Assembly (NCBI GenBank): GCA_013150955.1 | Contig: JAADJD010000031.1 | Coordinates: forward strand, 1-35,984 | Source of the DNA: Calditrichota bacterium | GTDB taxonomy: Bacteria; Calditrichota; Calditrichia; RBG-13-44-9; J042 | Length of the DNA stretch: 35,984 nt | Direction of reading: 5' to 3' | Shown here: in pieces, positions 17,374-35,984 of the stretch | Layout of the letters: every line of letters begins with the position of its first letter | How positions within the stretch are numbered: position 1 is the stretch's first letter | The notes under the pieces: generated by a model | Seen by the model: the letters and a program-made list of their open reading frames with translations, nothing else | The model's database searches: none | What the model was told of the DNA's origin: nothing | Made by a program: the position numbers and the translations under genes

Positions 17374-17408
17374 GGGACGATCGGATTTGCCTTTTGTGCC
17401 GGGTGAAT

Positions 17409-17575
17409 AAACCCTGATTATGCATTAGATCACGAATTACACGAATTAACACAAAAAATAAAACCCATTGGATTGTATCTGGGTGAAAATTTGTTTCCGG
17501 GTTTATTTGGAATTTTGTGGATGTTTTTGGTTTCATTCGCGTGATTCGTAGTTTACCGTATTATTTGGGATAAAA
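17409..17575 (+). repeat. MITE-like repeat, copy C (reference copy)
   Basis: The cleanest single copy, about 167 bp. Its left end (AACCCTGATTATGCATTAG, then CACGAATTACACGAATTAACAC) is the approximate inverse complement of its right end (TTCATTCGCGTGATTCGTAG, then TTTACCGTATTATTTGGG). The interior is AT-rich with CCCATTGGATTGTATCTGGG. No open reading frame. It ends 44 bases before the next start codon. Confidence 0.85.
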
Positions 17576-19033: not shown

Positions 19034-19144
19034 CGGCTCCTTCTGGGTACCCACCGGAATATCCGATTGTGGGGCAGGGGAGCAATGGGATCCCCTTCTC
19101 GTCATCAAGCCAGATCGTTTTTTGCCGATGTGAAAATTTGGGAT

Positions 19145-19506
19145 TTAACCCGGATGATGCGTTAGACCACGAATGACACGAATGAACACCAATAAAAATA
19201 ATAAACCCAGATTATGCATTAGACCACGAATGACACGAATTAACACAAATAAAATTAATAAAATAAATTGGGTAGTATCTGGATGAAAACTTGTTTTCGT
19301 GATTTATTCGTTATTTTGTGGATGTGTTTTGGTTTCATTCGTGTGATTCGCGGTTAAATGCATTTTTTGGGATAAAATGCACTGGATTCTATCTGGATGA
19401 GGATGTTTTCCCGGATATATTCGCTATTTTGTTGATTTTTTCGAATGCATTCGCATGATTCGCGGTTTCATGCATTATTTGAGTTTAGTCCATATTTTGG
19501 GATAAA
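19145..19506 (+). repeat. MITE-like repeat, copy D (nested/tandem)
   Basis: At least two and a half units in the same orientation: a left-end fragment from 19145, a full unit from about 19203 to 19377, and a further unit lacking its left end to 19506. It fills the whole gap between the DUF296 gene and aceK and ends only eight bases before the aceK ATG. Confidence 0.8.
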
Positions 19507-24208: not shown

Positions 24209-24237
24209 TTGTTTTTTTAAGAGTCGCGCAATATATT
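24209..24237 (+). promoter_or_regulatory. sigma70-like promoter of the GbsR-like regulator
   Basis: TTGTTT at 24209-24214 and TATATT at 24232-24237 have a 17-base spacer in an AT-rich tract. The predicted transcription start, about 24244, leaves only a short leader before ATG 24266. Confidence 0.5.
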
Positions 24238-24261
24238 TCAAACATTAAAAACATTGAAAAC
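24236..24261 (-). promoter_or_regulatory. candidate autoregulatory operator (inverted version of the shared element)
   Basis: Overlaps the -10 box and start region of the regulator. On the minus strand it reads GTTT, 12 bases, then ATGTTTG, the same spacing seen upstream of the hydrolase and SDR genes. It also contains TTTCAA/TTGAAA inverted half-sites (24236-24241 and 24254-24259). AT-richness makes chance similarity possible. Confidence 0.3.
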
Positions 24262-24742: not shown

Positions 24743-24802
24743 GTATCATCACCAGGGGCTGAAGGAAAGGGCAGGGGAATCGAGCTATTTTTTTGGCAAA
24801 AT

Positions 24803-24830
24803 CGTTTGAAAAATATCAAATGTTTGTTAC
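24803..24830 (+). promoter_or_regulatory. candidate operator/promoter element upstream of alpha/beta hydrolase
   Basis: Reads CGTTTGaAAAATatCAAATG then TTTGtTAc (lower case marks positions that differ from 29863-29890). It has 23 of 28 positions identical, ungapped, to the element before the SDR gene. It contains the half-sites TTTG, CAAA and TTTG, and lies about 20 bases before ATG 24851. Confidence 0.45.
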
Positions 24831-24850
24831 GTAATAAATTAGAGGGATTC

Positions 24851-25711
24851 ATGGAATTCGCAGATGTGGCGTATCGGTATCCGGTGCAGTTCCAGACCAT
24901 CCAGAATATTCGCGTGGCCTACATCGATCAGGGCCCACCGCAGGCGCCCACACTGGTATTCCTGCACGGCAACGGGGCCGATCTCAGCACGTTCGACTGG
25001 GTGTACCCGGCTTTTTGTTCAGGCTATCGCGTGATCGGGATAGATCTTCCCGGTTACGGCAAATCCGACAAACCGCTTCTGGATTATACCCCTACATGGT
25101 ACGTGGAATTCCTGCATGATTGGATTAAAGAACTGAATGTCCGTCGCTGGATAGGGGTGGGGCATTCCTATGGTGGGTGCCTGATCATGGAATACAGCCT
25201 GCAGTTTCCGGAAGAGGTGCAGGCGCTGATTCTTCTGGATGCGGCAGGAACTTATGCCTATTCCCAGATGGAAGTGGAATTCATTCGAGCCAATTTTACC
25301 CCGGAAAAATTAATGGCGGCCACTCCGGAACAGATCCGGCTTAGCATGCAGCAGGGATTGGGCGAGTGGTCACCGGCTTATGAAAGCTGGCTGGAAAAAT
25401 GGGTGGGATTGACCAGGGCCCGGGATTACGCCGGATACGCCCATGCGGTGTATCAGGCGCTGGAGGCCTGCATTCGATCCGATTTGCTGGAACGGGTTGA
25501 GGGAATCCGCCAGCCGGTGCAACTGATCTGGGGAGAGAAGGACGCCATTATTCCTCTGTCAGCCGGACAGGCACTGGCGGAACGCCTGCCGCAGGCGGAG
25601 CTGGAAGTGTTAAAGGGCTGCGGTCATTTTCCGCAACTGACCCGTGCATCCAGCGTGGTGGCGATCATGAATCGGTTTCTAAAATCCGTGCTCGCGCATC
25701 CAGGAGGATAA
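24851..25711 (+). CDS. alpha/beta hydrolase
   Basis: A 286-residue cytoplasmic serine hydrolase of the esterase/lactonase/MhpC-like type. The sequence shows LVFLHGNGADLSTFDW (oxyanion-hole HGNG, about 36-40), the nucleophile elbow GHSYGG with Ser106, the acid Asp231 in WGEKDAIIP and His259 in CGHFPQ. Lid helices lie between about 125 and 205. A Ser nucleophile argues against the haloalkane dehalogenase/OleB branch, which uses Asp. ATG 24851 follows AGAGGGA. It is 45 bp upstream of the symporter start and 108 bp after the regulator, so a regulated hydrolase-symporter unit is likely. It may cleave an imported ester, lactone or related compound. Confidence 0.85.
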   Translation: MEFADVAYRYPVQFQTIQNIRVAYIDQGPPQAPTLVFLHGNGADLSTFDWVYPAFCSGYRVIGIDLPGYGKSDKPLLDYTPTWYVEFLHDWIKELNVRRWIGVGHSYGGCLIMEYSLQFPEEVQALILLDAAGTYAYSQMEVEFIRANFTPEKLMAATPEQIRLSMQQGLGEWSPAYESWLEKWVGLTRARDYAGYAHAVYQALEACIRSDLLERVEGIRQPVQLIWGEKDAIIPLSAGQALAERLPQAELEVLKGCGHFPQLTRASSVVAIMNRFLKSVLAHPGG

Positions 25712-25756
25712 CGGCGTTTTTCGCATAACCATTTGAGTCAAAAGGTGGGGCGTGCC

Positions 25757-27274
25757 ATGATCTTTGCCTGGTTGATTTTTTTGATCTATGTAAGCGTTAC
25801 CCTGGGTTTGGCCTGGAAAGGGCACCAGAAAACAGACTCCTTCCGCAGCTATGCCATTGGCATGGGGGATATGAAACCCTGGGTGGTGGCGTTTGCTCTG
25901 GCAGCCAGCATGACCAGTACCGCAACTTTCGTTATTAATCCCGGTATCGTGTACGCGTATGGATTGTCCGCCGTGCTGGGGTACGGAGTCGCTGCCGGTA
26001 CCGGATTGATGCTGGGGATTGTTATTCTGTCCAAAGGGTTTCGTCGGTACGGCATCAAAGAAGCCGGATTAACCGTCCCCGACTGGATCGGTCGTCGATT
26101 TGGTTCCCGGAAAATGGCCGCTTTTTATGCCGTGGTGAATCTTTTGCTGATTGCCATGGTCGTGCTGATCTGTTACGCCATGGCGGGCCTGTTGGTGGCC
26201 ACCCTCCAGTTGCCAGCCGTCTTTCCCAACTCCAGTTTTGAAGTAGCACTTGCCATCATCGTGGTTTTTGTATTTGCGTACACCTACATTGGTGGAACTT
26301 ATGCCCATGCTTACACCAATATGGTGCAGGGATTGGTAATGCTGGTGGTTGCGGTGTTGCTGGTAGGTTCCGGAATTCCCCTGTTACAGGATAATTTGCT
26401 GGAGAAACTGGCAGCGATAGACCCCCTGCTGGCCCAGCCCATTCACCCCGGTAGTCTGTTATTCCGAAACGTATTCGAAGTGTTTGTGGCCAATTTTGTG
26501 GTGGGATTTGCTCTGGCGGCGCAACCCCATTTTGTGATAAAATCGCTTTACGTGCGCAGCGAACGCGATGTGAATCGTTACCTGGCACTGGCCATCCTCA
26601 TCGGTGTTGTGTTTACCTCGGTATTGCTTTGTGGATTGTATGCCCGCGTGGCTCGTGGGCCCTTTGTGGAGCAGTTCATTCAGCAAAATCAGATGGGAAT
26701 CGATGGAGTAATGCCGGCATACATTGTCAGCACCTTCCCGCCCCTGGTGGCGTTGTTTATTTCCATCGCGATTCTGGCGGCAGGAATGTCCACTCTGGAT
26801 GGCATCGTGGTGGCCCTTTCAGCCATTCTGGCCAATGATTTGTTCCTTCCCTGGTATCGTCGCAGGAAACCGGATCCCCGCCGCGAATTGCAGATGACCT
26901 TCCGTGTGGGACGCATTGCTGTGCTGGCGCTGGGAGGAGTGGCGTTTGGGCTTTCGTTATACCAGCATTATCATAAAGAATTCTCCATCGCTATTTTCGC
27001 TCAGGAGGGGGTGTACGCATTGTTTGCGGCAACCTTTATCCCCTTGATGGCTGGAATGTTTTTTCGCAACGTTTCTCGTCATCTGGTGTGGGGAACCTCA
27101 CTGGTGGCATTGGGGATTCATTTCGGATTTCGGTACGGGAAATGGACCCTGTTAACCCCGGCCGATTACACCAATCCGGGATTGACGGCCACTTATGGCC
27201 TGCTGGTAAGTCTGGGAATTGTCGCCTACTATGTTGTAGGTAAACGCCTGTTTTCTCGAAGTCCTTCATCGTAG
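25757..27274 (+). CDS. sodium:solute symporter (SSS family)
   Basis: A 505-residue inner-membrane transporter with about 13 hydrophobic segments, typical of Na+-coupled SSS (LeuT-fold) carriers. Visible landmarks are an N-terminal helix (AWLIFLIYVSVTLGLAW), the AASMTSTATFVINPG unwound first core helix, YTYIGGTYAHAYTNMVQGLVM (the usual GG.xxA..tD.vQg motif, with Asn in place of the common Asp) and ILAAGMSTLDGIVVALSAIL. ATG 25757 with upstream GGTGGGG is preferred to TTG 25733. Relatives carry proline, pantothenate, acetate or sugars. The substrate here may be small organic acids or alcohols released by the neighbouring hydrolase, but this is inference. Confidence 0.88.
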   Translation: MIFAWLIFLIYVSVTLGLAWKGHQKTDSFRSYAIGMGDMKPWVVAFALAASMTSTATFVINPGIVYAYGLSAVLGYGVAAGTGLMLGIVILSKGFRRYGIKEAGLTVPDWIGRRFGSRKMAAFYAVVNLLLIAMVVLICYAMAGLLVATLQLPAVFPNSSFEVALAIIVVFVFAYTYIGGTYAHAYTNMVQGLVMLVVAVLLVGSGIPLLQDNLLEKLAAIDPLLAQPIHPGSLLFRNVFEVFVANFVVGFALAAQPHFVIKSLYVRSERDVNRYLALAILIGVVFTSVLLCGLYARVARGPFVEQFIQQNQMGIDGVMPAYIVSTFPPLVALFISIAILAAGMSTLDGIVVALSAILANDLFLPWYRRRKPDPRRELQMTFRVGRIAVLALGGVAFGLSLYQHYHKEFSIAIFAQEGVYALFAATFIPLMAGMFFRNVSRHLVWGTSLVALGIHFGFRYGKWTLLTPADYTNPGLTATYGLLVSLGIVAYYVVGKRLFSRSPSS

Positions 27275-27325
27275 CAATTAACGGATGATGTATTTTAAAC
27301 CGTAAAGTTTTAAGCCTGAATGATG

Positions 27326-27528
27326 GATAAACCGCGGATCGCGCGAATGATTTCAAAAAATATTTGCAAAATCCCGAATAAACCCTGGAACACATTTTCA
27401 TCCAGGTATCATCAAATGGATTTTGTTTTATTCGTTTTAATTCGTGTAATTCGTAGGCTATTGAATAATCCGGGATTATTTGTGGGAATTCATGTAATTC
27501 GTGGTCCAATGCATAATCCGAGTTAAAA
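27326..27528 (-). repeat. MITE-like repeat, copy E
   Basis: Reverse-oriented copy running from GGATAAACCGCGGATCGCG to ATGCATAATCCGAGTTAAAA. Its last bases sit directly beside the ribosome site of the acyl-CoA ligase (ATG 27545), so the repeat supplies the leader of that gene. Confidence 0.8.
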
Positions 27529-27544
27529 ATTGAAGGATGGAATC

Positions 27545-29152
27545 ATGTTACCCGAATGTTATGAAACTATTCCACTGGATTGGGTGGGGGACTGGATTGG
27601 ACGCCGGGCGCGACTTACCCCCAATCGCGAAGCTGTGGTGGATCCGGAATCGGGCCAGCGGTGGACCTATGCCGAGCTGGACGACCGTGCCAATCGAGTG
27701 GGCACGTTTTTGGAACAGGGGCTGGGATTGCAGAAGGGCGACATCATTGCCCTGATGGCTCGAAATCGAGTGGAGTGCATCGATTTGTATTTCGCCTGTG
27801 GAAAAACGGGTGTGGTGCTGGCGCCGTTGAGCTATCGGTTACAATCACCGGAACTGAATGATTTATTACAACGATTACGCCCGCGGGTGTTGTTTTATGA
27901 ACACGCTTTTCAGTCCCTGGTGGATCAACTATCCCTGCAGGAACTGGATGCATTACCGATTGCTGTGGACGATTCTGCAGGACCATACGCAAAAGCATTC
28001 ATGGAACCCACCGCTCAACCCGTGAACCGTCCCCTGGCCATGAATGACCTCTTCCTGCTTGTGCATACCGGCGGGACTACCGCCACTCCCAAGATCTGTC
28101 GAATTACCCACCGGCAAATGTTCTGGAATTCCATTAATTTGATCATCACCGGATCCGGTGCGATTGGTGCCCACACGCGGGAGCTGGTCATTTTTCCTTT
28201 CTACCATATTGGGGGATGGAATACGGTGACCCCGGTGTTTCATATTGGGGGATGCGTGGTGCTCATGCGGCAATTTGATGCCGATAAGGCACTGGAGTGG
28301 ATTGAGCAGGAACGGATTACCCACTTTGGTGGAGTGGAGGCCGTCTTTCAAATGTTGTTGGAAAGTCCCCGTTTTGACCAGACGGATTTGTCATCTCTGC
28401 AGTATGTGAACTCTGCCGGCGCCCCCTGTTCGCGAAAAGTCATGCAGGCATTCTGGAAACGAGGCATTGTGTTTACCCAATCCTACGGATTAACGGAAGC
28501 CGGACCCTCCAATTTCATTCACGCGGTGGAATCCGGAGTAGATCCCGAAGAAATAATTGCTCCTAATGCGGATTCGGTGGGCTGGCCCATGTTTCATACA
28601 GATTATCAGTTGAGGGATCCTGCGAGCGGTGCGGTGATTCAGGATCCCGACAAACCCAGGGAGCTCTGGTTTCGGAATCCCCACAGTTTTGCCGGTTATC
28701 ATAAGGACTCCGAACGAACCCGTAACGTTACTGACGATCAGGGATGGGTGCGTTCAGGCGACCTGGCAGTACGGAATGCGCAGGGGTACGTTCGTATTAT
28801 TGGCCGGGTGGACAATATGTTCATCAGTGGCGGTGAGAATATTTCCCCCGAAGAAGTGGAAAATGCCCTGATGCGGCATCCCGCAGTGGAGGCTGCCGCC
28901 GTGGTGGGCGTGCCCGATGACCGGTGGGGGCAGGTGGGATTCGCCGCGGTCGTGCGCCGTTCAGATCACCCGGTGTCGGAAGAGGAATTGAGACAGTTTT
29001 GTCGGCAGCAGATCGCTGCCTTTAAAGTACCGCGCTATATTCATTTTGTGGATGATTTGCCACGTACCGGTGCGGGAAAAATTGATCGGCAGGCATTGAA
29101 GCGCATCGCCGATGGGGTATTGCAGGAAAAACGGGCACCCGGCAAGTCGTGA
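27545..29152 (+). CDS. acyl-CoA ligase (AMP-forming, FadD-like)
   Basis: Activates a carboxylic acid to an acyl-AMP and then acyl-CoA. The 535 residues have the adenylate-forming core. The phosphate-binding loop is HTGGTTATPK (about 174-183). The A5 motif QSYGLTEAGP starts near 312, the A7 motif WVRSGDLAVRNAQGYVRIIG lies near 402-421, and the hinge follows, with ISGGENISPEEVE (A8). The catalytic Lys is about 512 in RTGAGKIDRQAL (A10). ATG 27545 follows AAGGATGGA. It resembles medium/long-chain fatty-acid or aryl-acid CoA ligases more than OleC beta-lactone synthetases. It sits between the symporter and the SDR/KASIII genes. A signature Thr/Cys variation (TPKICRI) is seen just after the P-loop. 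Substrate unknown. Confidence 0.9.
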   Translation: MLPECYETIPLDWVGDWIGRRARLTPNREAVVDPESGQRWTYAELDDRANRVGTFLEQGLGLQKGDIIALMARNRVECIDLYFACGKTGVVLAPLSYRLQSPELNDLLQRLRPRVLFYEHAFQSLVDQLSLQELDALPIAVDDSAGPYAKAFMEPTAQPVNRPLAMNDLFLLVHTGGTTATPKICRITHRQMFWNSINLIITGSGAIGAHTRELVIFPFYHIGGWNTVTPVFHIGGCVVLMRQFDADKALEWIEQERITHFGGVEAVFQMLLESPRFDQTDLSSLQYVNSAGAPCSRKVMQAFWKRGIVFTQSYGLTEAGPSNFIHAVESGVDPEEIIAPNADSVGWPMFHTDYQLRDPASGAVIQDPDKPRELWFRNPHSFAGYHKDSERTRNVTDDQGWVRSGDLAVRNAQGYVRIIGRVDNMFISGGENISPEEVENALMRHPAVEAAAVVGVPDDRWGQVGFAAVVRRSDHPVSEEELRQFCRQQIAAFKVPRYIHFVDDLPRTGAGKIDRQALKRIADGVLQEKRAPGKS

Positions 29153-29416
29153 GTGATGGTCAGGAAACGAACGGGTCGTACAGGGCCAATCCCGTTTGGG
29201 TATTTACAGATGCAGGAACCGATTAGCATTAGTAAAAGAGCGGGTCAGGAAAAACGTCGTAAAAAGTGCGCAGGTTACAGAAAAATTAAGACGGGTGGGA
29301 GGATAGGGGACGGAGGGTTTTAAAGGGTAAGCAACCCTTTCCTGCAACCGTTTCGTCACCTATGGGCCGGTACCAGAGTATGCGTGATCCCGGTAGTAAA
29401 TAATGGCATTCATCAC
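29153..29416. other. non-coding stretch after the acyl-CoA ligase, with hairpin
   Basis: No gene is supported. A perfect 7-bp hairpin, AAAGGGT/ACCCTTT at 29322-29340 with a five-base loop, may end the upstream transcript, but no T-run follows, so a rho-independent terminator is not certain. Together with repeat copy F, the gene-free gap runs to 29926. Confidence 0.4.
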
Positions 29417-29787
29417 TTAAACCCAAATATTGCATTAAACCGCGAATCACGCGAATGAAACCCAAAAATATCTACAAAATCGCGATTAAACTCCGAAACA
29501 CATTTTCATCCAGATCGAATCCAAGGTATTTTATTAATTTTATTTGTGTTAATTCGTGTAATTCGTGGTTCTAATGCATAATCTGGGTTAAACCGCGAAT
29601 CACGCGAATGAAGCTAAAAAAATGTCGGCACAATCGCGAATAAACCCTGGAATACTTTTTCATACAGACACAATCCAATTTATTTTATTGGTTTTATTTG
29701 TGTTAATTCGTGTGATTCGTAGGCTAATGCATAATCTGGGTTTAATTCGTGTAATTCGTAGGCTCATACATAATCTGGATTAAAAAG
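29417..29787 (-). repeat. MITE-like repeat, copy F (tandem pair plus fragment)
   Basis: Two reverse-oriented units (about 29417-29590 and 29587-29743) share a junction of GCATAATCTGGGTTAAACCG, and a 45-bp right-end fragment follows. The shared boundary suggests duplication through the end sequences. Confidence 0.8.
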
Positions 29788-29862
29788 GGTTTCCGGGTAA
29801 AAATTTTCAAAATGGGGCAAATGCCTCTTGATTTTTTTATCTGAATTACGTTATCTTCTAAA

Positions 29863-29890
29863 CGTTTGGAAAATTGCAAATGTTTGATAT
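29863..29890 (+). promoter_or_regulatory. candidate operator/promoter element upstream of SDR
   Basis: Reads CGTTTGgAAAATtgCAAATG then TTTGaTAt (lower case marks differences). It matches the element at 24803-24830 at 23 of 28 positions without gaps. It lies about 37 bases before ATG 29927, overlapping where a -35/-10 region would be expected. Confidence 0.45.
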
Positions 29891-29926: not shown

Positions 29927-30670
29927 ATGATGCAATTTAAAGATACCGTAGTCATCATCACCGGCGCCGCGCGCGGCATCGGTCGTACAGCAGCTGAAAT
30001 GTTCGCTCGCCGTGGGGCCACGGTGTGGATCTGGGATGTGGATCCCGAGCAGGGAAACACAACTGCTGCATCTCTGCAGCAACAGCAACTCTCCGTCTTT
30101 TTTCAACCAGTAGACGTCACCCGATCCGAAAGCGTTGCCGAAGCGGTAGACCGGGTTCGAAGCGAGTCGGGAACCATTCACGTCCTCATCAACAATGCCG
30201 GTATCGTTCAGGATGCCACCCTGATGAAGATGGAGCCCCGACAATGGCAGGCGGTACTGGATGTCAACCTGACGGGTGTGTTTCATTGTACCCAGCAGGT
30301 TGCGCCGGTCATGGTTCAGGAAGGTTATGGACGCATCATCAATACCAGCTCCGTGGTGGGACTCTACGGGAATTTTGGGCAATCCAATTATGTGGCCACC
30401 AAAGCCGGCGTGATTGGGCTCACCAAGGTGTGGGCCAGGGAATTGGGGCGAAAAGGCATTACGGTGAATGCCGTGGCACCGGGATTTGTCGCCACGGAAA
30501 TGGTGGAAACCGTTCCGCAAAAAGTATTGGACATGGTTGTTCAACGCACACCGGTGGGGCGCCTGGGCTCTCCAGAAGATGTGGCGTATGCCTACCTGTT
30601 TCTGGCCTCCAGAGAAGCCGGATTCATTAACGGTGCTGTGTTGAGTGTGGATGGAGGATTTATTCCTTAA
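29927..30670 (+). CDS. short-chain dehydrogenase/reductase, FabG-like
   Basis: A 247-residue classical SDR, probably an NAD(P)H-dependent 3-oxoacyl reductase or the reverse hydroxyacyl dehydrogenase. Features are ITGAARGIGRTAAE (nucleotide-binding TGxxxGIG, about 11-24), NNAGI (about 87-91), catalytic Ser142, Tyr155 and Lys159 (NTSSVVG, SNYVATKAG), and VNAVAPGFVATEM. The first half has WDVDPEQG after the second strand; Asp in that region leans toward NAD(H), but this is uncertain. The C-terminal INGAVLSVDGGF is the normal FabG-type ending. The KASIII gene starts 22 bp downstream and the TonB receptor follows, indicating one operon of SDR, KASIII and receptor. Confidence 0.9.
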   Translation: MMQFKDTVVIITGAARGIGRTAAEMFARRGATVWIWDVDPEQGNTTAASLQQQQLSVFFQPVDVTRSESVAEAVDRVRSESGTIHVLINNAGIVQDATLMKMEPRQWQAVLDVNLTGVFHCTQQVAPVMVQEGYGRIINTSSVVGLYGNFGQSNYVATKAGVIGLTKVWARELGRKGITVNAVAPGFVATEMVETVPQKVLDMVVQRTPVGRLGSPEDVAYAYLFLASREAGFINGAVLSVDGGFIP

Positions 30671-30692: not shown

Positions 30693-31685
30693 ATGATGCG
30701 CAACGCCGTGATTGTGGGATCAGGAATGTATGCCCCGGAACGGGTGTTAACCAATGCCTATTTCAACGAATTGTTGGGAGAGGATGTGGACACCTGGCTG
30801 CGGGAGAATGTGAATATTTATGAAAGACGATGGTGTCGCGAGGACGAGTCGACGGCAGATTTATGTGTCGCAGCCAGCCAGAAGGCGCTGGCCAGTGCGG
30901 GCATAGAACCAGATGCACTGGATCTGATCATTGTGGCCACGGATACCCCCGAATATATCTCGCCCTCCACGGCCTCAGTCGTTCAGCATCGTCTGGGAGC
31001 CCGAAATGCGGGAACGTTTGATATCAACACCGCCTGTGCTGGATTTGTAACTGCCCTGGATGTGGGCAGCCGCTACATCCGAAGCGATCAATCCTACCGG
31101 TACATCCTGGTTATTGGGGCCTATGCCATGAGCAAATATCTGGATATGACCGATAAAAAAACGGTTACCCTATTCGCGGATGGGGCGGGCGCGGTGGTGC
31201 TGGCAGCAGTCCAAGATAAAACGCGGGGATTTATTGGCAGTCACCTCCGTACCGAAGGGGAGTACCACGACTATATGGGGATCTACGCCGGGGGAACTCA
31301 CCAGCCAATCACGGAGACCGTTCTGAAACAGAAAGCGCATTTGCTAAAATTTGTGCGAAAATTTCCGCCGGATTTGAATGTGACCCGCTGGACATCCATG
31401 ATTCAGGAAGTCACTTCCCGTCACGGATTCACTCCCGCCGATGTGAAGCATTACTTCTTTACCCAGATTAACATTCGTAGCATACGAGAGACTCTGGATC
31501 GCCTGGGATTACCCCACGATCGGGCGCACACCATCATGCAGCGATACGGATACACCGGTTCCGCCTGTATTCCCATGGCCTTTGCTGATGCGCAGCAGCA
31601 AGGCAAGCTAATGGAAGGAGACCTGGTGTGTTTTATGGGATCCGGGGGAGGTGCTGCTTTTGCCTGTGCACTGTTTCGGCTTTAA
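30693..31685 (+). CDS. ketoacyl-ACP synthase III-like enzyme lacking the usual His/Asn
   Basis: A 330-residue thiolase-fold protein related to FabH, which condenses acyl-CoA with malonyl-ACP. The nucleophile Cys115 sits in NTACAGFVTALD, matching E. coli Cys112. The C-terminal half ends FMGSGGGAAFACALFRL. Where FabH has HQAN (His244), this protein has TQIN (Thr257). Where FabH has GNTSSA (Asn274), it has GYTGSACIP (Tyr287). It therefore keeps the acyl-accepting Cys but not the decarboxylation pair, suggesting a non-decarboxylative acyltransferase or another condensation chemistry. ATG 30693 has GGAG eight bases upstream; the upstream ATG at 30687 is too close to that site. It lies between the SDR and the TonB receptor. 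Confidence 0.88.
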   Translation: MMRNAVIVGSGMYAPERVLTNAYFNELLGEDVDTWLRENVNIYERRWCREDESTADLCVAASQKALASAGIEPDALDLIIVATDTPEYISPSTASVVQHRLGARNAGTFDINTACAGFVTALDVGSRYIRSDQSYRYILVIGAYAMSKYLDMTDKKTVTLFADGAGAVVLAAVQDKTRGFIGSHLRTEGEYHDYMGIYAGGTHQPITETVLKQKAHLLKFVRKFPPDLNVTRWTSMIQEVTSRHGFTPADVKHYFFTQINIRSIRETLDRLGLPHDRAHTIMQRYGYTGSACIPMAFADAQQQGKLMEGDLVCFMGSGGGAAFACALFRL

Positions 31686-31715: not shown

Positions 31716-34073
31716 ATGAAGCCGTTTATCGTTGTTGTGTTTTTAATGGGAATGGTGCTGGGTGCCCTGGCCCAGACAGGCACCGTTTCCGGTGTGGTCA
31801 CCGATGCGGACACGCAGCAGCCACTCATTGGTGCCAATGTGGTTGTTAAGAATACCCATTTGGGGGCATCTACCGATGAGGACGGGTATTTCCGAATCGA
31901 AAATCTGTCTCCCGGGGCATATACCCTGGTGATCAGTTACATTGGTTATCGGGAAGCCGAAGTCCCGGTGGATGTGCGGGCGGGGGAGACCACTGAAGTT
32001 CAGGTGGCATTGCAAGCCGCTCAAATTCCGGGAGATGTGGTGGTTGTCACCGCTACCCGGGGATCGGAAAAGGTCGTAGATGCCCCCGCAACCATTAATG
32101 TCCTGACCGCTCGTGATTTTGAATTAATCCCCACATACAATTACGAATTGGCTTTTGCTACCATGAAGGGGGTGGATTTTGTGCGCACGGGCGTGGATGG
32201 CGTGGGGTTGAATGCGCGGGGATTTAATAGTGCCTTCAACACCAAAGTGTTGCTGCTCACGGACAATCGAATTTCCATGATGCCCGGCACCGGTCTGCCC
32301 GCCGGAAACATGAATCCAGTGATTAAAGAAGACATCAATACCATGGAAGTGGTGTTGGGGCCGGCGTCCGCATTATATGGTGCCAACGCCCACAATGGGA
32401 TTGTAAATGTTATTACGCGCGATCCCCGAAATTTCCGGGGAACCACCCTGGCATTGAGTGTGGGCAACCAGGACGTAAAAAGCGGGCGTTTGTACCATGC
32501 CGGCGTGTTGGGGAAATTTGCTTACAAATTAACAGGAGAATATTCAGCCGGTACGGAATTTAAATTCGTGGATACCGTTTACGTGGGGCAGCTGGCGGTT
32601 CCCGAAACACCGGATTTTAAATTCGAGCACATCCGCGGATCGGCTTCGCTATACTATCGTTTATTTGAAAACAGTGACCTCATTGCCTCCTATGGTCGCA
32701 GTGTGAACAGTGGGCTTGGGGTAACCAACAATGGACGAAACCAGATAAAAGATTGGGTTTACGAATACGCTCAATTGCGATTTGTGAGTCCCCACCTGTT
32801 TGCCCAGGTTTACCGCACCTCAGTGGATGCCGGGAAGACCCATTCTTTGCGAAACAAGGCCATTTACATGTTGTCCGGACTTTCTTATACCGATGCGGTG
32901 GAAAAGGCCACCTTTATTGATCGGTCTTCCACACTTTTCGGGGAGATTCAATTCAATCAAACCATCGCTGGATTCGGCATTACGCTGGGAGCCAATTATC
33001 AGAAGGACATGCCGGTCAGTGAAGGCACTTACCTGGCAGATACCGGGAATGTTTCCATTGACCTGGTCCAGTATGGTGTGGTGGCGCAGGTGGATCGACG
33101 CTTGTTTGGCGGCTGGTTGCGGGCGATCGGAGCCGTGCGATATGATTATCATGAAAATTATGGGACGCAAATTAGCCCAAAAGCCGGTCTGGTGCTTAAT
33201 GCACTGAATGGTGCATTCCGGGTGACATTTGGACGTGGATATGTGGCCCCTACCATTTTGCACCAGGAATTGTATATTCCCATTTCGGCTGGATTCATCC
33301 TGCGCGGGAACGGCGATGGCTTCACGCTGTTGGATGGCACCAAAATCGATCCGCTGAAACCGGAAACGGTGGACACCTGGGAAGTGGGTTACAAAGGTGC
33401 TCCGGTACAACGCCTGTATCTGGATGTGAACGCCTACTATTCTCGGAATCAGAATTTTATATCGCCTTTGAATGTCATTGGTGTGGTTAAAGAGATTGGT
33501 GGGGTACCGGTTGCTCCTACCGTGGTTATGACATATTTGAATTTTGGTGAAGTCAACACCTACGGCGCAGATCTGGCTGCCGAATTTGCCGTTTCATCGA
33601 ATATCACCCTGCGGGGCACGTTTTCCTATTTTGGTTCCAATTTAGATACCGCACGAACCAATCCCGATGGGACAAAGTACTGGGACATCAATAAAGATGG
33701 CAAGGTGACGCCCAATGAAATCAGCCTGAACACCCCTACTTACAAATGGTCGCTCACTCTGTTAATGACCGATGTGTTCTTGCGGAACCTGACCACAGCC
33801 ATTACCATCCGTGGGGTTGCGGAGTACGATATGGTTTCCGGTATTCACATGGCTTCTGCCACCGGGGTAGGCACCCGATTATCCGGGTTTAATTTCAACT
33901 ATGGGCCCCTGGGTGGATTTACCACGGTGGGTATCAGTGCCGGTTATCGTGTCAATCAGGTATTGACACTGGGTTTTTCGGCCAGCAATATTTTCAATGT
34001 GGAACAGCGAGAATTTGTGGGATCACCGTCCATTGGGCGGTTAATGTCTCTGGAAGCCCGCGTAAGTTTTTAA
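31716..34073 (+). CDS. TonB-dependent receptor with carboxypeptidase-regulatory N-domain
   Basis: A 785-residue outer-membrane active transporter. The signal peptide ends GALA at residue 19, giving Gln20. Residues about 20-105 are a CarboxypepD-regulatory-like domain (GTVSGVVTDADTQQPLIGA, YRIENL-type strands, VISYIGYREAEV), as in SusC-type receptors. The plug follows at about 110-225 (VVVTATRGSEKVVDAPATI, LNARGFNS, EVVLGPASALYGANAHNGIV), then a 22-strand-type barrel ending LEARVSF with terminal Phe. An EF-hand-like loop DINKDGKVTPNE lies at about 657-668 in an extracellular loop. The upstream AAAGAGGAGG is a strong ribosome site. Operon position after SDR and KASIII suggests uptake of the module's substrate. 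No SusD partner is present. Confidence 0.92.
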   Translation: MKPFIVVVFLMGMVLGALAQTGTVSGVVTDADTQQPLIGANVVVKNTHLGASTDEDGYFRIENLSPGAYTLVISYIGYREAEVPVDVRAGETTEVQVALQAAQIPGDVVVVTATRGSEKVVDAPATINVLTARDFELIPTYNYELAFATMKGVDFVRTGVDGVGLNARGFNSAFNTKVLLLTDNRISMMPGTGLPAGNMNPVIKEDINTMEVVLGPASALYGANAHNGIVNVITRDPRNFRGTTLALSVGNQDVKSGRLYHAGVLGKFAYKLTGEYSAGTEFKFVDTVYVGQLAVPETPDFKFEHIRGSASLYYRLFENSDLIASYGRSVNSGLGVTNNGRNQIKDWVYEYAQLRFVSPHLFAQVYRTSVDAGKTHSLRNKAIYMLSGLSYTDAVEKATFIDRSSTLFGEIQFNQTIAGFGITLGANYQKDMPVSEGTYLADTGNVSIDLVQYGVVAQVDRRLFGGWLRAIGAVRYDYHENYGTQISPKAGLVLNALNGAFRVTFGRGYVAPTILHQELYIPISAGFILRGNGDGFTLLDGTKIDPLKPETVDTWEVGYKGAPVQRLYLDVNAYYSRNQNFISPLNVIGVVKEIGGVPVAPTVVMTYLNFGEVNTYGADLAAEFAVSSNITLRGTFSYFGSNLDTARTNPDGTKYWDINKDGKVTPNEISLNTPTYKWSLTLLMTDVFLRNLTTAITIRGVAEYDMVSGIHMASATGVGTRLSGFNFNYGPLGGFTTVGISAGYRVNQVLTLGFSASNIFNVEQREFVGSPSIGRLMSLEARVSF

Positions 34074-34132: not shown

Positions 34133-34221
34133 TAAAAAAGGCAGCCCGGGAGTCGGAGCGGTCCATCCACAAACAAATGCGCCTGGAAGTGCCCATTAGC
34201 GGGTTACCACCCTTTATCCCC

Positions 34222-34270
34222 AAATCCGCAATCCCAAATCCGACATCCGAAATCCGAAATCCGCAATACG
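34222..34270. repeat. heptamer tandem array 1 (AAATCCG-type)
   Basis: Seven consecutive 7-base units: AAATCCG, CAATCCC, AAATCCG, ACATCCG, AAATCCG, AAATCCG, CAATACG. Variation is almost confined to the first two bases and one final base. Confidence 0.9.
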
Positions 34271-34275
34271 ACCCC

Positions 34276-34319
34276 GCCCCGTAAGGGCAAAATATGTTAG
34301 CCCGGAGCAACGCTCCGGG
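34276..34319. repeat. palindrome pair (GCCC-GTAA-GGGC and CCCGGAGC/GCTCCGGG)
   Basis: A short hairpin at 34276-34288 and a perfect 8-bp hairpin at 34301-34319 are joined by AAAATATGTTA. The same order, a GCCC-GTA-GGGC hairpin then a CCCGG palindrome after a short A-rich linker, recurs at 34695-34738. Confidence 0.85.
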
Positions 34320-34349
34320 AATCGGAGAGATTCCCAAAAAAACAAATGC

Positions 34350-34362
34350 GCCCTGTAAGGGC
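34350..34362. repeat. palindrome GCCCT-GTA-AGGGC
   Basis: Perfect 5-bp stem with GTA loop followed by ATAATAAATAATAA. An identical hairpin lies at 34770-34782. Confidence 0.85.
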
Positions 34363-34389
34363 ATAATAAATAATAAGCAGGCGGCTCCC

Positions 34390-34443
34390 AAATCCGCCAT
34401 CCGCAATCCGCAATCCGAAATCCGAAATCCGCAATCCGAAATC
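34390..34443. repeat. heptamer tandem array 2 (AAATCCG-type)
   Basis: Seven full 7-base units plus a partial eighth: AAATCCG, CCATCCG, CAATCCG, CAATCCG, AAATCCG, AAATCCG, CAATCCG, AAATC. Confidence 0.9.
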
Positions 34444-34450
34444 ATCTCCA

Positions 34451-34467
34451 GTTGCCCTTCAGGCAAC
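34451..34467. repeat. palindrome GTTGCC/GGCAAC
   Basis: Perfect 6-bp stem with CTTCA loop, eight bases after heptamer array 2. Confidence 0.8.
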
Positions 34468-34505
34468 TACGGGAAACGCTGGGAATTAAGGTGGCACCAC
34501 GTTTA

Positions 34506-34524
34506 CCCCACGCGCTGCGTGGGG
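34506..34524. repeat. palindrome CCCCACGC/GCGTGGGG
   Basis: Perfect 8-bp stem with GCT loop. Confidence 0.85.
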
Positions 34525-34534
34525 CTACCCTCTT

Positions 34535-34551
34535 TTTGCCCTTCGGGCAAA
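34535..34551. repeat. palindrome TTTGCCC/GGGCAAA
   Basis: Perfect 7-bp stem with TTC loop. Confidence 0.85.
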
Positions 34552-34627
34552 TCGTCCCATTATTATACCCTGCATTTCCATCAAAAGAAGCAAAATAACC
34601 CCAGCCCCGGGATTTGCTATCACCCCC

Positions 34628-34683
34628 AAATCCGCAATTCGCAATCCGAAATCCAACATCCGAAATCCGCAATTCGAAATTCG
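34628..34683. repeat. heptamer tandem array 3 (AAATCCG/CAATTCG-type)
   Basis: Eight 7-base units: AAATCCG, CAATTCG, CAATCCG, AAATCCA, ACATCCG, AAATCCG, CAATTCG, AAATTCG. Confidence 0.9.
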
Positions 34684-34694
34684 CATCCCTTCCC

Positions 34695-34738
34695 GCCCCG
34701 TAGGGGCACCATAGGACAGCCCGGGGCAGTACCCCGGG
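34695..34738. repeat. palindrome pair (GCCCC-GTA-GGGGC and CCCGGGG/CCCCGGG)
   Basis: Perfect hairpins at 34695-34707 and 34720-34738 separated by ACCATAGGACAG. This is the second instance of the paired arrangement seen at 34276-34319. Confidence 0.85.
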
Positions 34739-34769
34739 GGGAGGATGAACAACGGTTCCCAATCCTCAC

Positions 34770-34782
34770 GCCCTGTAAGGGC
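34770..34782. repeat. palindrome GCCCT-GTA-AGGGC, second copy
   Basis: Identical to 34350-34362, followed by AGAATATGAAACAAAGG. Confidence 0.85.
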
Positions 34783-34819
34783 AGAATATGAAACAAAGGA
34801 CATGGATTAGGGGAAATTA

Positions 34820-34996
34820 TTAACCCAGATTATGCAATAACCTACAATTACACGAATGAACACCAATAAAAATAATAAAATGCACTGGATTCTATCTGGA
34901 TGAAAATATTTTCCCGGATATATTCATTCAATATTTTGTTGATTTTTTTTCGAATTCTTTCGCGTGATTCGTGCTTTAACGCTTAATTAGGGTTAA
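34820..34996 (+). repeat. MITE-like repeat, copy G
   Basis: Full-length forward copy from TTAACCCAGATTATGCAATA to TTTAACGCTTAATTAGGGTT. Its ends are approximate inverted repeats of one another. Confidence 0.85.
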
Positions 34997-35664: not shown

Positions 35665-35839
35665 GGTTAACCTTGCGTTTTTGGTTTTTTAAATTTTATC
35701 ATAACATTATTCTTATGCTTGTCTTATACATTACTATATTAGCAAAATAATCCCCACCCATCAAAAACACAATAGAAAAAACTTGGGATATTCATGAACA
35801 GACAATGCCGAATAGAATAGTCATATAAAATCCGGATAA
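35665..35839. other. AT-rich intergenic region upstream of the antitoxin
   Basis: No gene is seen. It holds the presumed promoter of the minus-strand toxin-antitoxin pair and ends at the last repeat copy. Confidence 0.4.
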
Positions 35840-35984
35840 ATTAACCCAGATTATGCATTAGCCTACGAATTACACGAATGAACACAAATAAAATTAACCC
35901 AGATTATGCATTAGACCACGAATTGCACGAATTAACACAAATAAAAATAATCAAATACATTAGATCAGATCTGGATGAAAATTC
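35840..35984 (+). repeat. MITE-like repeat, copy H (cut by window end)
   Basis: A left-end fragment (TTAACCCAGATTATGCATTA, about 58 bp) is followed by a second left end from about 35897, which continues into the internal TCTGGATGAAAATT segment and runs off the window. Confidence 0.8.

Follow-up and report, generated by a model that had tools for sequence, protein, structure and literature searches.

A predicted palindromic operator beside a GbsR/Mj223-like regulator gene in a Calditrichota bacterium

In Bacillus subtilis, GbsR is described as governing choline uptake and oxidation genes by roadblock repression from operators that lie downstream of the transcription start site, and the known GbsR repressors are described as using AT-rich inverted repeats in this downstream position (PMC7396694). 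OpcR, according to the same source, blocks the -35 region. OpcR and OpuAR are likewise GbsR-type repressors of transporter genes and, as described, serve osmoprotectant ABC transporters (PMC6207618, PMC7396694). Mj223 of Methanocaldococcus jannaschii (PDB 1KU9) is the template for GbsR models, and an aromatic cage near the linker is described as comprising six Phe residues in GbsR and four aromatics in OpuAR (PMC6207618). The Mj223 operator itself is called unknown in PMC7396694.

Here we analyzed a stretch of 35,984 nucleotides (the window), which is the entire contig C10 of a 4.07-Mb, 66-contig genome of a Calditrichota bacterium, and in which a GbsR/Mj223-like regulator gene sits between a PLP-decarboxylase gene and a hydrolase gene (Table 1). 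Two similar 28-base elements occur in this region, and we conclude, with a probability of roughly 80%, that each of them holds a palindromic operator of the adjacent GbsR-like repressor, which, judging from sequence, would control a hydrolase-symporter unit and an SDR-KASIII-TonB unit. As with the B. subtilis gbsAB and opuB operators (PMC7396694), a related MarR-superfamily regulator is paired with an AT-rich inverted repeat near or downstream of the transcription start, and a roadblock is proposed. The half-sites of B. subtilis GbsR, however, are described as 4 bp apart, whereas the TTTG/CAAA cores are 8 bp apart here (a comparison of spacing descriptions, not of letters), and the described B. 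subtilis targets concern choline, whereas those found here encode an SDR, a KASIII-like protein, a hydrolase and a symporter (PMC7396694). Similarly, none of the osmoprotectant ABC transporter genes described for OpcR and OpuAR (PMC6207618, PMC7396694) occurs in the window cluster, and Mj223, although the regulator's closest solved structure, stems from another organism and context. In the open-licence literature we found no paper on this operator and no regulon paper for the phylum.

Table 1. Genes and predicted control elements in the window (all listed genes lie on the plus strand)
Feature	Position	Strand	Remarks
Candidate regulator promoter, TTGTTT-N17-TATATT	24209..24237	+	8/12 to sigma-70 consensus; weak, under promoter-scan threshold
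Single good half-site, TTTCAAACATT	24236..24246		core of echo 24239-24261, adjoins TATATT; 8.6 bits
GbsR/Mj223-like MarR-superfamily regulator, 158 aa	24266..24742	+	PDB 1ku9 (MJ223), E 2.4e-17
Operator A (predicted), dyad AATCGTTTG-AAAAATAT-CAAATGTTT	24800..24825		upstream of alpha/beta hydrolase gene; rank 2 genome-wide, 20.2 bits
Alpha/beta hydrolase	24851..25711	+	first gene after operator A; Pfam Abhydrolase_1 5.6e-29
Sodium:solute symporter (SSF)	25757..27274	+	45 bases after hydrolase; Pfam SSF 1.1e-36
AMP-binding acyl-CoA ligase	27545..29152	+	Pfam AMP-binding 3.3e-72; no own dyad upstream, dispersed repeats precede
Candidate SDR promoter, TTGATT-N18-TATCTT	29828..29857	+	8/12; stops 2 bases before operator B; weak
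Operator B (predicted), dyad AAACGTTTG-GAAAATTG-CAAATGTTT	29860..29885		upstream of SDR gene; rank 1 genome-wide, 21.5 bits
FabG-like SDR	29927..30670	+	first gene after operator B; Pfam adh_short_C2 5.5e-69; NCBIfam FabG NF004198 above cut-off
KASIII(FabH)-like protein without FabH His and Asn	30693..31685	+
TonB-dependent receptor	31716..34073	+	30 bases after KASIII gene; Pfam TonB_dep_Rec_b-barrel 3.4e-28

The regulator has a winged-helix MarR-like domain and resembles Mj223/GbsR over most of its length, placing it among GbsR-type proteins; its 1ku9 match spans residues 4-139 (136 residues), and its Pfam MarR_2 score of 26.2 bits falls just below the cut-off of 27. Within the recognition-helix stretch, S53 K54 G55 P56, S58 Q59 and R62 R63 L64 are invariant across six regulators. 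As for aromatic residues, W74, F90 and F94 are invariant and positions 82-83 hold F/Y in six orthologues. An identification as CudC (NCBIfam equivalog NF047500) was rejected, the match being partial and scoring 59.9 bits against a cut-off of 218. No choline/betaine uptake or oxidation genes lie next to the regulator, whose neighbors are the hydrolase, SSF, AMP ligase, SDR, KASIII and TonB-receptor genes.

An earlier note on this DNA had singled out the two 28-mers, CGTTTGAAAAATATCAAATGTTTGTTAC (24803-24830) and CGTTTGGAAAATTGCAAATGTTTGATAT (29863-29890), as identical at 23 of 28 positions without gaps, and direct reading reproduced this figure (5/28 positions differ). Both indeed lie upstream of start codons, the first 20 bases from the hydrolase ATG at 24851 and the second 36 or 39 bases from the SDR ATG at 29927/29930. 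The window contains 5667 intergenic 28-mers, and direct pairs among them that match at 23 or more of 28 positions occur at many offsets, all within dispersed repeats except for the offset of 5060, which bears out the claim that the two elements stand 5 kb apart and outside these repeats. Across the 4.07-Mb genome, the 24-base A/B consensus found no further match with up to 2 mismatches and two with 3 mismatches, and a reversed-consensus control found one match at up to 3 mismatches.

The conserved unit is a 24-26 bp dyad, TAACGTTTG-AAAWWTTT-CAAAYGTTA, with the core TTTG-N8-CAAA and symmetrical flanks, present at 24800-24825 and 29860-29885 (hereafter operators A and B). The 28-base GTTT-N12-ATGTTTG frame proposed previously is out of register with this palindrome; we rejected it as the unit, given that it is exact at three places but what the genomes conserve is TTTG-N8-CAAA. 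Apart from A and B, only the L017 SDR site keeps the trailing TTTG, which in L019 reads TTTA. Of note, an extra TTTG occurs at 24792-24795, exactly 13 bases 5' of operator A's TTTG, and a TTTG at this same distance before that of the dyad is found in five target promoters (the hydrolase promoters of the window and G010, and the SDR promoters of L017, L019 and L021); it may be either a promoter box or a third half-site.

We compared 40 genomes of one class of the phylum, i.e., the window's own (G000) and 39 others, and found the regulator in seven of them (own, G010, G014, G017, G018, G021 and G029). In the six relatives, the dyad precedes the SDR gene in 6/6, the regulator gene in 5/6 and the hydrolase gene in 1/6. 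It thus stands before the regulator gene, the usual autoregulatory place, in five of seven genomes; the two exceptions are the window and G010, where the promoter of the regulator gene has no full dyad. In a test set of 19 chosen upstream regions (2874 bp), TTTG-N8-CAAA occurred 14 times, versus a mean of 0.43 and a maximum of 4 in 1000 dinucleotide shuffles, and while a spacing of 8 gave these 14 matches, any other spacing from 0 to 24 gave at most 6. The five regions without the dyad were those of the window's regulator, AMP ligase, symporter and TonB receptor, and that of the G010 regulator (L018). Altogether, the window and seven loci contain 21 perfect dyads, 14 in target upstream regions and 7 elsewhere, and the 12 sites from relatives yield the consensus TAACGTTTGAAAAATTTCAAAnGTTn. 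The promoters of the regulator and its neighbors therefore share a conserved inverted repeat, the feature expected of GbsR-type operators. Because the same symmetrical site precedes the equivalent genes in six relatives, A and B are very probably docking sites of the neighboring GbsR-like protein, which is favored as the binder since it co-occurs with the cluster and an operator stands before its gene; this assignment is drawn from linkage, co-occurrence and autoregulatory position.

The gene order regulator-SDR-KASIII-symporter-ligase is found in G014, G017, G018 and G021, and three of them also have a hydrolase gene farther along. In G010, the hydrolase, TonB receptor and symporter genes adjoin the regulator and SDR-KASIII is on a separate contig, and in G029 the cluster appears as fragments only, near a contig end. 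A close KASIII (62-100% identity) is present in six of the seven regulator-bearing genomes, with a contig-end fragment in the seventh. Most relatives carry a single cluster in which the regulator and SDR genes have one operator each; the window genome and G010 have a rearranged gene order, with a copy before the hydrolase unit and a weak or absent copy at the regulator. The G029 regulator gene (L021 641-1111) contains several in-frame stops, reflecting either a pseudogene or sequence error, while the two operators persist in this draft together with a fragment of the SDR gene.

A model (R1) built from the relatives' 12 sites, with no window sequence, was run on the 40 genomes, scoring the best 150 first-look candidates in each. 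In the window genome, B and A came first and second, followed by matches of 18.9 and 17.9 bits, so that the genome-wide matrix scan suggested in the earlier note places the two elements on top even with a window-free model. With leave-one-genome-out symmetric matrices, the two expected sites likewise scored highest in the loci of all seven genomes, the smallest lead being that of the L019 regulator site (14.5 vs 9.9); the sites in this exercise were chosen by their perfect core and are thereby favored, whereas R1 had seen neither A nor B. Among the 33 regulator-less genomes, the best scores were 21.8 bits in G012 and 19.3 in G038, the remaining listed ones being at most 17.7. Since the G012 site lies in an unrelated place of a genome without the regulator, a high score alone is no proof. 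The genes adjacent to the high-scoring sites in G012, G038, G019, G005 and G021 are unlike the cluster, except that the G021 site has a weak TonB-receptor match nearby, and we took these sites as background.

The third and fourth matches in the window genome, before plsX and an amidohydrolase gene, respectively, both lie off the cluster. The plsX dyad (L095 4027-4050; G000:C64:166026-166049) is ~120 bases before the gene and recurs at the equivalent place in the congener G001 (L103), a genome without a GbsR-like gene; no perfect dyad precedes plsX in the regulator-bearing G010, G014, G017, G018, G021 and G029. The amidohydrolase site is partial in G001 (7/8 core letters) and absent in L115, and L114 has almost no sequence 5' of the gene. 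We do not claim a larger regulon that includes these two genes, given that the plsX dyad is kept in the regulator-less G001 and the amidohydrolase site is partial or absent elsewhere.

The plsX dyad common to G000 and G001 counts against an exclusive link between regulator and dyad, and raises the idea that the dyad is the operator of these same genes for another transcription factor, e.g., a fatty-acid regulator with plsX among its further targets. We consider this unlikely, as the dyad stands before the regulator gene itself in five of seven genomes, the cluster and the regulator co-occur, and no perfect dyad was seen before plsX in the six regulator-bearing relatives. It is less probable still that the elements are parts of the core promoter, such as TTTG-containing boxes of the phylum, and no repressor site. 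They do overlap the presumed promoter region, and the further TTTG that five target promoters carry 5' of the dyad (the k = 21 hits) would suit such boxes. A general promoter motif, however, should be common, yet the window consensus has no second copy in the genome at up to 2 mismatches, and the model's top two genome matches fall at these very genes; moreover, the dyad is a palindrome, and the distance from its axis to the start codon downstream varies between 16 and 79 bases.

Intergenic DNA here is AT-rich and the window is full of dispersed repeats, so a chance likeness of AT-rich gaps, or one more repeat, might be suspected. The excess of dyads over shuffled upstream regions (14 in 19 regions vs 0.43), the ranks given independently by a model derived from other genera and the lack of further genome copies at up to 2 mismatches make this the least credible of the explanations, and we take it as refuted for A and B, but not for the echo at the regulator promoter. 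Taken together, the earlier proposal of operators for the GbsR-like protein is supported by the model ranking and the relatives' dyads, but not in its 28-base frame, nor in its echo as written.

This echo, on the minus strand at 24239-24261, does fit GTTT-N12-ATGTTTG exactly, as had been noted, and the pattern occurs at 7 places in the genome, 3 of them within the window (control, 0 matches). As an operator, however, it comprises only one good half-site, near the place where the regulator gene is preceded by a full operator in five of the six relatives. It scores 8.6 bits, compared with 21.5 for B and 20.2 for A, and with the leave-one-genome-out matrix 10.2 compared with 28.5 (B) and 27.8 (A), an unrelated position (27358) reaching 11.2. 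At most, then, the half-site at the regulator promoter is a weak or decayed operator.

Regarding mechanism, a regulator dimer bound at operator A would repress the hydrolase and symporter genes, and perhaps the CoA ligase gene as well, and one bound at operator B would repress the SDR-KASIII-TonB unit; a small molecule that the cluster produces or takes up would release the regulator. The operator axis lies 16-26 bases from the start codon in the five dyad-bearing regulator genes and 31-79 bases for SDR and hydrolase genes (the G010 hydrolase start being approximated from a tblastn match). The best promoter-like hexamers, e.g., TTGACA-N18-TATATT (L017), TTGACA-N17-TAACAT (G010 hydrolase) and TTGCAA-N17-TATATT (L019), end between the dyad's left flank and ~15 bases before its axis, and a TATATT beside the operator at the regulator is common to the window, L016, L017 and L019. 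With this arrangement, a bound dimer would lie over either the -10/start region or the very beginning of the transcript. Several other upstream regions showed no convincing hexamers, and strict sigma-70 scans did not report the by-eye promoters of the window regulator and SDR. We infer repression by this regulator, the promoter positions and the inducer; since the window's promoter matches are poor, the promoter-covering step is likewise inferential there.

The predicted system is an ordinary case of local repressor-operator control; what is unusual is one enzyme of the cluster. FabH (KASIII) uses a Cys-His-Asn triad. Compared with 1zow, the window KASIII keeps the Cys, yet PHQAN is replaced by FTQIN and GNT by GYT (YGYTGSA), i.e., the FabH His becomes Thr and the Asn becomes Tyr, and the triad is incomplete. 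TQIN and (G/A)YT are shared by six cluster KASIII orthologues (window, L016, L017, L019, L020 and L026), and the paralogues L028 and L029 are canonical (HQAN, GNT). The chemistry of the cluster enzyme is thus, by its residues, probably not standard FabH condensation. Given the symporter and the CoA ligase, our guess is that the cluster serves uptake and activation of an organic acid.

A wider picture, which we offer tentatively and doubt somewhat more than we believe, is that of a GbsR/Mj223-type repressor that has no part in osmoprotection and has its own operator code, TAACGTTTG-N8-CAAACGTTA, governing an undescribed uptake-and-activation pathway around a KASIII-like enzyme from which the FabH His and Asn have been lost. 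The cluster would have been broken up in two lineages, leaving operator copies before the separated units and losing the regulator's own. The predicted operator and small regulon are precise and testable, and concern a regulator whose nearest solved relative, Mj223, is described as having no known operator (PMC7396694). Moreover, they tie an enzyme and transport cluster to one presumably ligand-responsive switch, so that knowing the ligand of the regulator would give a lead to the substrate.

Dispersed intergenic repeats occur in the window in both orientations, at 2685-2892, 17398-17532, 19141-19415, 27323-27497, 29416-29760, 34214-34960 and 35830-35956, and some of the copies are of the form aaccgcgaatcacgcgaatg ... 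ttcgtgtaattcgtgg.
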